The notes beneath the pieces are model-generated. The model was given only the letters and a program-made list of their open reading frames with translations. It searched no databases and was not told the DNA's origin. Made by a program: the position numbers and the translations under genes. Below, piece after piece: positions 30,978 through 39,500 of a stretch of 64,000 nt of DNA (the stretch's first letter is position 1; each line of letters starts with the position of its first letter). Source of the DNA: Limisphaera sp. GTDB taxonomy: Bacteria > Verrucomicrobiota > Verrucomicrobiia > Limisphaerales > Limisphaeraceae. The DNA is taken from contig JANWVC010000025.1 of NCBI GenBank assembly GCA_025057755.1, positions 62,001 to 126,000 on the forward strand, read 5' to 3'.

Positions 30978-31490
30978 TCAGGGCGGTTGCACGCTCCGAT
31001 CGGAGTCTGACCGTCCACCGGACTTGGGCAATGGCACGCTCGGCAACGGTTCGGGGCAGAAAGGGCCTTCCCAAAGCGAACGTGCCCGCACTAATTGCTG
31101 CAACAATTGTGCGTCTGCGGGAGGAAATTTGTGACGCCGCAGATTCTGACGCGCTACCCACTTAAAGCGTGAGCACCCGAGTGGACGCGGTTGGCCGCCT
31201 GTCCAGCGGCTCAAAAAGAAGCGGATTTCGACGCCGATTTCGGGGTAGTCATGTCGAACCAGGGCCCATAACGGCCCCACTTCTACCTCAATGTCCAGCT
31301 CTTCCTTCAACTCACGGCGCAAGCAGGCTTCGAAACTCTCACCCGGCTCCCGTTTGCCTCCCGGAAACTCCCAGAAGCCTGCTAAGTGCGTTCCTTGAGC
31401 CCGACGAGTAATTAAAACTCGCCCTTGATGGAAGACCAGGGCGGCCGCGACTTCCACGATGGGCCTCGGATCGTTGGCAGAATGGGCCAT
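30978..31490 (-). CDS. MutT-type NUDIX hydrolase (8-oxo-dGTP diphosphatase-like)
   Basis: 'VEVAAALVFHQGRVLITRRAQGTHLAGFWEFPGGKREPGESFEACLRRELKEELDIEVEVG' Nudix box. Confidence 0.93.
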   Translation of the reverse strand: MAHSANDPRPIVEVAAALVFHQGRVLITRRAQGTHLAGFWEFPGGKREPGESFEACLRRELKEELDIEVEVGPLWALVRHDYPEIGVEIRFFLSRWTGGQPRPLGCSRFKWVARQNLRRHKFPPADAQLLQQLVRARSLWEGPFCPEPLPSVPLPKSGGRSDSDRSVQPP

Positions 31491-34886: not shown

Positions 34887-35429
34887 ATCGGGATTTTTGT
34901 GCCTCGGAGCCGCTTGGGCCGGCTCCGAGTTTCTGCAGCTCTTTCTCGTAAGCTTACTGCTGACCCCAGGGGCTAGCCCAGTCTCCAACCTTGCATCTTA
35001 CTGTGAAATTTTTGCACCCGCCCCGTTGGTGAATCGCAGCACAGCGCTCCTAGCTCGCCTGGTTCAGGTCGGGTTTGCATTATCCATGGCTTCCAATGAG
35101 AACGCCCTGAATCAAACCTGAGACACACACCAGGCCTCGCAGGCAATCTCCGGAGGCAAGAGGCTCGCACAAAGGAGGGTGGCCCTGAAGTTGGGATTGG
35201 TGGAGGTGCCTTGGAGGGACCAGAGCGGAGCATGGCCGTTGCCTTATGCTATCGCCAGGGCCCCAAAGGACCCCGACTGCATCGTTCGAAGCAGGAAATC
35301 GGCCTCAGGGTTTATAATAAGTAGGCGCGCCGTAAAGGCTGAGCCGAGGCCCTGCATGCAAAAGCGCGCCATGGCCTTAGCTTTGGAACGCCGTTGCGTC
35401 CGCCCAGCCTCGCGCTACTATTCGAGGGA

Positions 35430-36572
35430 ATGACGCAGGCGGCGATTTCGGATGATCTGCTGCAACGAGTTTGGGATGGCGCAAGGGTTTCGCCTCAGGA
35501 AGCCCGCGCGCTGTATGAACTCCCTCTGCATGAATTGGGACTTCTGGCCGACCGGCGCCGACAACTGGCCAAAGCCCACGCTTACAACGGACGCGGCGCC
35601 AAGATCGTTACTTACATCATCGACCGGAACATCAACTACACCAACATCTGCAATGTCTATTGCAAGTTTTGTGCGTTTTATCGGACGGAGCGGGCTCCAG
35701 ACGCTTATGTCATTAGCCTGGAGGAGTTGGATCGAAAGATTGAAGAAACCGTGGCTTTGGGCGGCACACAGATCCTGCTTCAAGGAGGCCATCATCCCGG
35801 GCTGCCCAAGCAATGGTACTTGGACCTGCTGCATCATATTCACGACCGGTTTCCTCAGGTTAACATTCATGGGTTTAGCCCCCCTGAGTTCATCCACTTT
35901 CAGAAGGTCTTCGATGAACCAGTGGAAGAGATCATTCGGGATTTCCGAGCCGCTGGCTTGGGCTCGATCCCCGGGGGGGGTGCAGAAATCTTGGTAGATC
36001 GGGTACGACAACGGATTGCGCCGCTGAAGGCTAGCACCGAGGAATGGCTGTATGTCATGGAAACAGCCCATCGTCTGGGCTTATGTTCGACGGCTACCAT
36101 GATGTTTGGCCATGTGGAGACGGTCGAGGATCGAATCGAGCACTGGGATCGCTTGCGACAACTCCAAGATCGTTCTTTATCCAGCGCCGGTCAGGAGCGG
36201 GCGGCCGGACCTGAGGCCGCGTCGGGCGGATATTTTACAGCTTTTATCGGTTGGACGTTTCAGCCGGACAATACACGTCTGCGCCTGCCTCGTGCCAGTG
36301 CGCTGGAGTATCTGCGGACCCAGGCGTTGGCTCGAATCTACCTGGACAATTTCGAAAATGTGCAAAGCTCCTGGGTAACCCAGGGCCCGGAGATCGGCCA
36401 ATTGGCGTTGTGTTACGGCGCCAATGACCTGGGCAGCATCATGATCGAAGAAAACGTGGTGCGCCAAGCGGGAGCCTGCTTCCGAATGAATGTGGCAGAC
36501 ATGCATCGTTTGATTCGGGATCTGGGCTTCGAGCCGCACCAGCGAGATAATTGGTACCGTTTGGTCCATTAA
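35430..36572 (+). CDS. mqnC: Cyclic dehypoxanthinyl futalosine synthase MqnC (radical SAM, menaquinone futalosine pathway)
   Basis: 'INYTNICNVYCKFCAFYR', 'GGTQILLQGGHHP', 'HGFSPPEFIHF', 'LGSIPGGGAEILVDRVR', 'STATMMFGHVET', 'FTAFIGWTFQPDNT'. Confidence 0.94.
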   Translation: MTQAAISDDLLQRVWDGARVSPQEARALYELPLHELGLLADRRRQLAKAHAYNGRGAKIVTYIIDRNINYTNICNVYCKFCAFYRTERAPDAYVISLEELDRKIEETVALGGTQILLQGGHHPGLPKQWYLDLLHHIHDRFPQVNIHGFSPPEFIHFQKVFDEPVEEIIRDFRAAGLGSIPGGGAEILVDRVRQRIAPLKASTEEWLYVMETAHRLGLCSTATMMFGHVETVEDRIEHWDRLRQLQDRSLSSAGQERAAGPEAASGGYFTAFIGWTFQPDNTRLRLPRASALEYLRTQALARIYLDNFENVQSSWVTQGPEIGQLALCYGANDLGSIMIEENVVRQAGACFRMNVADMHRLIRDLGFEPHQRDNWYRLVH

Positions 36573-38036: not shown

Positions 38037-39134
38037 GTGATTCAGAACGTGATTTTGGATTGGTCCGGCACGTTGGTGGATGATCTGTCGGCAGTGTGGC
38101 ATGCCACGAATCAAGTTTTGCGACGCGCGGGACGGCCGCCGATGAGTCTGGAAACGTTCCGTAGCGAGTTTTGCCTGCCATTTGCACGATTCTACGACCG
38201 GCACGTTCCGGGGGTGCCTTTACGCCAGCTGGAGGCATGGTTCCATGAGGCGTTCGCTGAGGTGCAGCATCCAGTCGAGGCGTTACCACATGCACGCGGG
38301 TTTTTGGAGTTTTGTCAGAGGCATGGACTCCGGACATTTGTGCTGAGCACGGTCAAAAGAGAGTATTTCGAGCGGCAATCTGTGCAGACTGGTCTGGCCC
38401 CTCTATTGGGCCCGGCGTATTTGGAGGCGTGGGACAAACGCGAGTGGATTGGACGATTGTTGAGCGAGCAGGATCTGAATCCTCCCGAGACAATCTTCGT
38501 GGGGGACATGCAGCATGACGTGGAGACCGCGCAGCACGGAGGCATTGGCTCTTGCGCAGTTTTGACCGGCTACAACACACTTGATCAATTGCGGATGGCA
38601 GGTCCGGACCTTATCGTCGAACACTTGGGCGAACTGCAGTATTGGTTGGAATCCGAACATTGGTCCTGGCCGCCTGCGGTCGAGAAATCGAAAAATCAGA
38701 GCCCCGTCGTCACGGTCGGGGCTTTGATCCTGAACGACCGCAATGAAGTCTTGCTTGTGCGTACGGCCAAATGGTCGCATCGATGGGGTATCCCGGGCGG
38801 AAAAGTGCGAACCGGCGAGCCATCCGAAGCAGCATTGCGCCGTGAATTGCACGAGGAGACCGGATTGGAAGTGACTGACGTGCAGTTGGTCGAGGTCCGC
38901 GATTGGATCAACCCTCCGGAGTTTTACCGGCCGGTGCATTTTGTCTTGTTCACGTACCTCTGTCGGGTGAGGGGGGCTCCTGATGTTCGGATCAACCACG
39001 AGAGCTGTGCCTGGCGATGGGTGCCACTAGCTGACGCGTTGTCAGTGGAGCTGAACGAGCCGACCCGCCGCTTGGTCGAAAGGGTCCTCGGCTCAGCGTC
39101 CGCGCGTCTGCCGACCGCCCCGGCGGAGTCGTGA
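38037..39134 (+). CDS. HAD-superfamily phosphatase - NUDIX hydrolase fusion (candidate dihydroneopterin triphosphate processing enzyme); GTG start
   Basis: HAD: 'VILDWSGTLVDDL', 'VLSTVKREYFE', 'IFVGDMQHDVETAQHGGIGSCAVLTGY'. NUDIX: 'VTVGALILNDRNEVLLVRTAKWSHRWGIPGGKVRTGEPSEAALRRELHEETGLEV'. folB begins 18 bp downstream. Confidence 0.9.
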   Translation: MIQNVILDWSGTLVDDLSAVWHATNQVLRRAGRPPMSLETFRSEFCLPFARFYDRHVPGVPLRQLEAWFHEAFAEVQHPVEALPHARGFLEFCQRHGLRTFVLSTVKREYFERQSVQTGLAPLLGPAYLEAWDKREWIGRLLSEQDLNPPETIFVGDMQHDVETAQHGGIGSCAVLTGYNTLDQLRMAGPDLIVEHLGELQYWLESEHWSWPPAVEKSKNQSPVVTVGALILNDRNEVLLVRTAKWSHRWGIPGGKVRTGEPSEAALRRELHEETGLEVTDVQLVEVRDWINPPEFYRPVHFVLFTYLCRVRGAPDVRINHESCAWRWVPLADALSVELNEPTRRLVERVLGSASARLPTAPAES

Positions 39135-39152
39135 GTTTGAGGAGAATGAGGA

Positions 39153-39500
39153 ATGCTCATCATTATCGCAGATTTGGAGGTGTTTTACCGGGTCGGGGTG
39201 AGCGATACGGAGCGCGCCCGACCGCAACGGCTCTTGCTGACTGTGGAATTAGAACCCGGGGAAAATCGTTCGACGATGACCGACGACTTGTCAGATACTG
39301 TAGATTACTACGAAGTTTCCCGCGACTTATTGCAATTCGGCGAACACCGAAGTTGGCGGTTGTTGGAGAAACTGGCTTCTGATCTGGCCGACGAGCTGCT
39401 GGCACGTTACCGCCTGAAAGCCGTGACCGTGGAGGTTAAAAAATTCGTTTTGCCAGAGGCGCGACACGTGGCCGTTCGCCTTTGTCGTACTGCAGCCTGA
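39153..39500 (+). CDS. folB: Dihydroneopterin aldolase
   Basis: 'ADLEVFYRVGVSDTERARPQRLLLTVELE', 'DDLSDTVDYYEVS', 'RSWRLLEKLASDLADELLARY', 'VEVKKFVLPEARHVAVRLCR'. Confidence 0.92.
   Translation: MLIIIADLEVFYRVGVSDTERARPQRLLLTVELEPGENRSTMTDDLSDTVDYYEVSRDLLQFGEHRSWRLLEKLASDLADELLARYRLKAVTVEVKKFVLPEARHVAVRLCRTAA

Follow-up and report, generated by a model that had tools for sequence, protein, structure and literature searches.

A HAD-Nudix fusion coupled to folB as a candidate dihydroneopterin-monophosphate phosphatase in Verrucomicrobiota

Which enzyme takes the last phosphate from dihydroneopterin monophosphate (DHNMP) in folate synthesis, and could it be encoded beside the gene for dihydroneopterin aldolase (FolB)? 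A comparative genomics study of folate genes assigns this dephosphorylation to a 'non-specific phosphatase' (PMC1971073), and the accessible parts of later papers on folate synthesis name no gene for it. The open-access papers searched yielded no HAD-type or DHNMP-specific phosphatase and no HAD-Nudix-folB fusion. The question is raised by one locus in the window, the 64,000-nucleotide stretch of a Limisphaera sp. contig analysed here (genome of 3.63 Mb in 34 contigs). An open reading frame running from a GTG at 38037 to a stop at 39134 joins a HAD domain to a complete Nudix domain on one chain. The ATG of folB, read from the same strand, lies 18 nt past that stop and is preceded by GAGGAG as its own ribosome-binding sequence. 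The frame stays open back to 37761, and the start was placed at 38037 because the relatives begin there. The features of the locus are as follows.

38037..39134, plus strand: HAD-Nudix fusion gene, 365 aa, GTG start; orthologues share the start site.
38037..38651, plus strand: HAD domain with class C1 cap, residues 1-205 (Pfam HAD_2, AlphaFold2, Foldseek); candidate dihydroneopterin-monophosphate phosphatase.
38058..38072, plus strand: HAD motif I, D8-W-S-G-T12; nucleophile D8, Ser10 at the usual Asp site; invariant.
38346..38348, plus strand: HAD motif II, Ser104, positioned by sequence; the 41-sequence alignment has Ser or Thr here.
38436..38438, plus strand: HAD motif III, Lys134; invariant.
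38502..38519, plus strand: HAD motif IV, G156-D-M-Q-H-D161, metal ligands; GDMxHD in 151/151 entries.
38652..38702, plus strand: interdomain linker, residues 206-222; low model confidence (pLDDT about 53-77).
38703..39086, plus strand: Nudix domain, residues 223-350 (Pfam NUDIX; closest solved structures NudI); candidate dihydroneopterin-triphosphate pyrophosphatase.
38799..38867, plus strand: Nudix box, G255-L277, by sequence; R269, E270, E273 and E274 invariant in 16 orthologues.
39153..39500, plus strand: folB, dihydroneopterin aldolase, 115 aa (Pfam FolB 3e-23); aligns to solved DHNA enzymes.

The folB product matched Pfam FolB with 82.9 bits against a gathering threshold of 31.8, and aligned to 3o1k and 3r2e through conserved E, Y, E and K positions. 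Its score against the folB equivalog TIGR00525 was 71.6 bits, 0.6 below the cut-off of 72.15, which the fused FolB of one relative passed with 75.1 bits. Elsewhere in the window, mqnC (cyclic dehypoxanthinyl futalosine synthase, 35394-36572, plus strand) scored above its cut-off, and futalosine-type menaquinone synthesis is thus likely in this organism.

The HAD domain was recognized by Pfam HAD_2 over residues 5-175 (5.8e-13, 49.8 bits vs a gathering threshold of 23.8). Its AlphaFold2 model (pLDDT 93.8, pTM 0.90) resembled the HAD phosphatases 2ah5, 3d6j and 3mc1 in Foldseek searches (TM 0.83-0.87), including the alpha-helical cap; the full-length model (pLDDT 88.7, pTM 0.64) consists of two domains with a low-confidence linker between them. 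The motif I nucleophile and motifs II, III and IV of C1 phosphatases are all present, and D8, K134, D157 and D161 are invariant in the HAD subfamily, as are the family-specific cap residues N25, F41, F45, L47-P48, Y53 and P58. Motif I has the DWSGT form in every sequence of the 41-sequence alignment and in each of the 151 entries tallied, a tally that includes some loci twice.

The sequence-only reading had described one open reading frame with a complete HAD core and a complete Nudix box, followed 18 bp later by folB on the same strand. The position of folB, both domains and the completeness of the Nudix box stand, but the HAD core lacks one element: where the phosphatase motif DxDx[TV] has its second Asp, every copy has Ser10, giving a motif I of the DxSGT type. 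In phosphomonoesterases the Asp at this +2 position is the general acid/base that protonates the leaving group. HADs without it include the P-type ATPases (Thr), LHPP/HDHD2 (Ser) and PhnX (a small residue of the Ser/Thr/Ala class), and a Ser-type residue at +2 in known HADs is accompanied by unusual chemistry (anhydride, P-N or other) or calls for another acid. Phosphomonoesterase chemistry is likely rather than assured for a HAD domain with Ser at +2, and D16, which is invariant too, might stand in for the missing general acid. Ser10 therefore keeps alive two rival readings, in which the domain would hydrolyse pyrophosphate or glycolaldehyde phosphate.

The Nudix domain matched Pfam NUDIX over residues 224-348 (2e-27, 96 bits vs a gathering threshold of 21.1), and its box is intact (G255-x5-E-x7-REL-x-EE-x-GL). 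NudI was the best profile match, and NudI structures were the top-ranked Nudix matches by fold; against the NudB equivalog NF006961 the domain scored 24.7 bits, below the cut-off of 103. No stand-alone protein above the NF006961 cut-off was found in any of 51 genomes. The window's genome has seven Nudix matches, the HAD-fused one included; another lies within the window itself and is MutT-like (30978-31490, minus strand; TIGR00586 98.1 bits vs a cut-off of 97.9).

Membership of the HAD subfamily (E ≤4e-40) is set off by a sharp gap from the next match at 2e-21. The subfamily was detected in 54 of 388 genomes of the phylum, all within the window's class, and the match spans HAD and Nudix in 16 of them. 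Fifteen orthologous HAD-Nudix proteins occur elsewhere in the class at 41-55% identity; the 16 HAD-Nudix proteins can be aligned over their full length, and both active sites fall in invariant columns. Among the matches listed from named genome records, a listing filled by Limisphaerales-type loci, 80 additional loci were read, of which 76 encode HAD-Nudix; in 71 of these 76, folB follows downstream on the same strand. With the 15 orthologues and these 76 loci, the architecture is far beyond chance. Among named genomes, the closest relatives are MAGs that carry the labels Limisphaerales, Pedosphaera or Verrucomicrobia subdivision 3. Limisphaerales-like versions of the locus also occur under record titles that name Akkermansia muciniphila or Klebsiella pneumoniae (L113, L114, L118, L146, L149, L167, L170 and L176); these titles look wrong.

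The gene neighborhoods of 41 HAD carriers comprise 16 with HAD-Nudix, 8 with HAD only at folB, 11 with HAD-FolB fusions and 6 with HAD separated from folB. Twelve of the 16 HAD-Nudix genes directly abut or overlap folB and two lie within 0.7 kb on the same strand (14 at or within 0.7 kb), the other two being elsewhere; the eight HAD-only genes likewise abut or overlap folB. In 11 genomes HAD and FolB are on one polypeptide, three of which were confirmed by Pfam. All six cases of separation belong to family f5. FolB in f5 is usually fused instead to a C-terminal circularly permuted YpsA domain (cpYpsA/SLOG, PF12694), as in the following genes.

L087 5210-6121, minus strand: FolB-cpYpsA fusion, family f5.
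L089 5173-6084, minus strand: FolB-cpYpsA fusion, family f5.
L086 5090-6046, minus strand: FolB-cpYpsA fusion, family f5.

Among the 145 genomes of family f4, HAD and FolB were both detected in 138, neither in 4, FolB only in 1 and HAD only in 2 (81-82% complete), a co-occurrence with a Fisher p of 4e-6 without correction for relatedness. The two matches fall in one open frame in about 49 of these genomes (count from tables) and, with about a dozen exceptions among the 138, lie within roughly 1.5 kb of each other. Co-absence is weak evidence here, because the two are sometimes one gene and contigs may be missing. In genus g4, two genomes (G113 and G197) have neither FolB nor HAD and keep FolE2 and FolK; this co-loss gives weak support, since both are one gene there. 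Several FolB-bearing genomes of the class are without HAD (G235 and families f17, f8 and f7), and thus HAD is not universally required.

In the HAD-domain tree six changes are needed to account for the HAD-Nudix architecture, and well-supported branches force at least four of them; the HAD-FolB fusion needs two, which leaves room for a single origin of that fusion. HAD-Nudix occurs in both halves of the tree, whose root is not known, and the natural reading is therefore an ancestral HAD-Nudix fusion followed by repeated loss of Nudix. Since Nudix was lost repeatedly and HAD-FolB was kept, HAD plus FolB forms the stable unit and Nudix the variable part; the distribution suggests that the Nudix step is replaceable. 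No free-standing orthologue of the lost domain was detected in the Nudix-less lineages (best score 56 bits vs 194-229 for fused copies). In genus g37, which has lost the HAD-fused Nudix, an RppH-type Nudix gene adjoins folK in 3/3 genomes and is missing from the folK neighborhoods of two HAD-Nudix relatives in the same family.

L179 4175-4675, minus strand: RppH-type Nudix gene beside folK, genus g37.
L180 5173-5712, plus strand: RppH-type Nudix gene beside folK, genus g37.
L181 3992-4534, minus strand: RppH-type Nudix gene beside folK, genus g37.

It is possible that this gene replaces the lost domain there; as a replacement in general it was set aside, being an RNA pyrophosphohydrolase above its cut-off and confined to one genus. 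Nudix genes near FolE2 were also rejected: two MutT-like genes at a distance of about 5 kb were all that turned up.

FolB is single-copy in all 69 FolB-bearing genomes of the 79 tested, and FolK was detected in 44 of 48 genomes tested, all four negatives also being without FolB. FolE2 was found in 74/79 genomes and FolE in 5/79. FolE was not found in the window's own genome, where a broken pathway was considered and dismissed because FolE2 is present. PTPS-III as a bypass of FolB was likewise rejected: the PTPS copies examined are of the C...HGH type, PTPS-III was not found, and the PTPS of G113 is not of that type. As a separate observation, G167 and G013 of family f7, which have FolE and no FolE2, encode an unusual array of three tandem PTPS domains (PF01242) in one open reading frame of about 400 aa directly beside folE, the first repeat being without the HGH motif.

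L075 296-1483, minus strand: PTPS triple open reading frame, family f7.
L076 269-1483, minus strand: PTPS triple open reading frame, family f7.

These results strongly support the link to folate that the sequence-only reading had proposed, through conserved adjacency, HAD-FolB fusions, co-occurrence, a single-copy FolB and the presence of FolE2 and FolK; absence of stand-alone nudB, which it had named as a point to score, agrees with the 51 genomes, none of which reached the NudB cut-off. It had named two observations that would speak against it. Homologues never linked to folate genes are contradicted by the conserved folB linkage, and dedicated folQ-type enzymes were not encountered in the form of any NudB-type enzyme, though other Nudix genes exist. 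Its proposal that both steps reside in one protein survives for the HAD-Nudix lineages only, with the predicted activities on dihydroneopterin triphosphate (DHNTP) and DHNMP; given the repeated loss of Nudix, the general finding is the HAD-FolB pair.

The constant coupling of HAD with FolB (adjacent, overlapping or fused) therefore makes the HAD domain the best candidate for the missing DHNMP phosphatase. Judged from sequence, this is probably its role, and the assignment is better supported than that of the Nudix domain, for which DHNTP pyrophosphatase activity is plausible and narrowly favored. Read as a whole, the window protein is reasonably likely to be a bifunctional enzyme dedicated to the pterin branch of folate synthesis, with Nudix acting before HAD. 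FolE2, encoded elsewhere in the genome, would make 7,8-dihydroneopterin triphosphate, which the Nudix domain would convert to DHNMP and PPi. The HAD domain would then form a phospho-Asp8 intermediate and release dihydroneopterin and Pi, with D8, D157 and D161 holding Mg2+, and FolB, translated from the adjacent gene, would cleave dihydroneopterin to 6-hydroxymethyldihydropterin for FolK. We infer the substrates, the order of the steps and any channelling from the domains and their context. More broadly, we lean towards a clade-specific dedicated DHNMP phosphatase with the HAD signature DWSGT...GDMxHD and Ser at +2, which would work in phosphatase-aldolase chains in some Verrucomicrobiota and in pyrophosphatase-phosphatase chains in others.

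The alternative that survives best, although unlikely, is that FolB cleaves dihydroneopterin monophosphate directly and that the HAD domain acts just after it, dephosphorylating the resulting glycolaldehyde phosphate. This would explain the HAD-FolB fusion equally well, with the upstream Nudix step still needed, and an archaeal protein is annotated 'dihydroneopterin monophosphate aldolase' (PMC5041015). The best named matches of the HAD domain are phosphoglycolate phosphatases, whose substrate is similar to glycolaldehyde phosphate, but it scored only 44 bits against the phosphoglycolate-phosphatase equivalog cut-off of 180, and the FolB domain aligns with ordinary DHNA enzymes. We know of no bacterial FolB that prefers the monophosphate.

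It is quite unlikely that the HAD domain instead hydrolyses inorganic pyrophosphate (or acts as an anhydride hydrolase), drawing the Nudix reaction forward by removing its product PPi, with another enzyme taking the last phosphate. Ser at +2 fits a leaving group that can depart unprotonated, and the fold and profile neighbors of the domain include the BT2127 pyrophosphatase; however, that B. thetaiotaomicron enzyme has Asp at +2 (Asp11 and Asp13 mutants are among the structure entries), and HAD is kept with FolB, also as a fusion, in lineages without Nudix. The same fusions, with adjacency and overlap across several families, would be unexpected for a general sanitation enzyme, which makes it improbable that the Nudix domain converts (oxidised) nucleoside triphosphates to NMP and the HAD domain NMP to nucleoside, the folB link being historical, even though NudI, a nucleoside triphosphatase, is the nearest match of the Nudix domain and shares with it a C-terminal Asn...Thr-Arg stretch. 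Supply of another pterin product (tetrahydromonapterin or a pterin of unknown use) can be largely discounted: FolB-like proteins include the DHNTP epimerase FolX, and the window FolB falls just under its equivalog cut-off, but it scored 38.7 bits against the FolX cut-off of 152, so that FolX was rejected for this gene, and it is the only copy in a genome that also has FolK.

If the preferred reading, in which HAD acts on DHNMP, is true, a pterin-branch step usually put down to unspecific phosphatases would have a dedicated protein, and a function would be predicted for a gene present in many Verrucomicrobiota. With HAD and FolB adjacent in most carriers and fused in many, a single purified protein is enough to put the unassigned step to the test; the coupling also raises the mechanistic question of how a phosphomonoester would be cleaved by a HAD that has Ser at +2.

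We rate the assignment and the fusions as new, and the folds and the pathway as known. The window Nudix domain shares with NudB of E. coli and FolQ of L. lactis and plants the Nudix fold and box, the folate gene context and the predicted reaction, and differs in its score far below the NudB cut-off, its closest structures (NudI) and its fusion to a HAD domain; FolQ was identified by the same kind of gene-coupling evidence. The HAD domain resembles the HAD-IA (C1-cap) phosphoglycolate phosphatase group (2ah5, 3d6j, 3mc1) in fold, nucleophile Asp, motifs II-IV and alpha-helical cap, and departs from it in the invariant Ser at +2, its own cap residues and its linkage or fusion to FolB. It also resembles PhnX, whose motif I is of the DW(A/S)GT type with a small residue at +2, but it has no cap-domain Schiff-base lysine, the only invariant Lys being K134 in the core; the PhnX model TIGR01422 was not among the 25 matches listed for the window protein and gave 21-23 bits vs a cut-off of 220 on two fused relatives. 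Like the HAD subfamily, the HDIG phosphohydrolases FolQ2 are predicted non-orthologous phosphohydrolases found by folate-gene clustering, although they belong to a different superfamily and their fusion to FolB is not reported in the accessible parts of PMC1971073. The same study describes a FolB-FolK fusion in Bifidobacterium longum, which, like HAD-FolB, joins neighboring folate steps; in HAD-FolB the partner is instead a HAD domain, that is, the preceding step.
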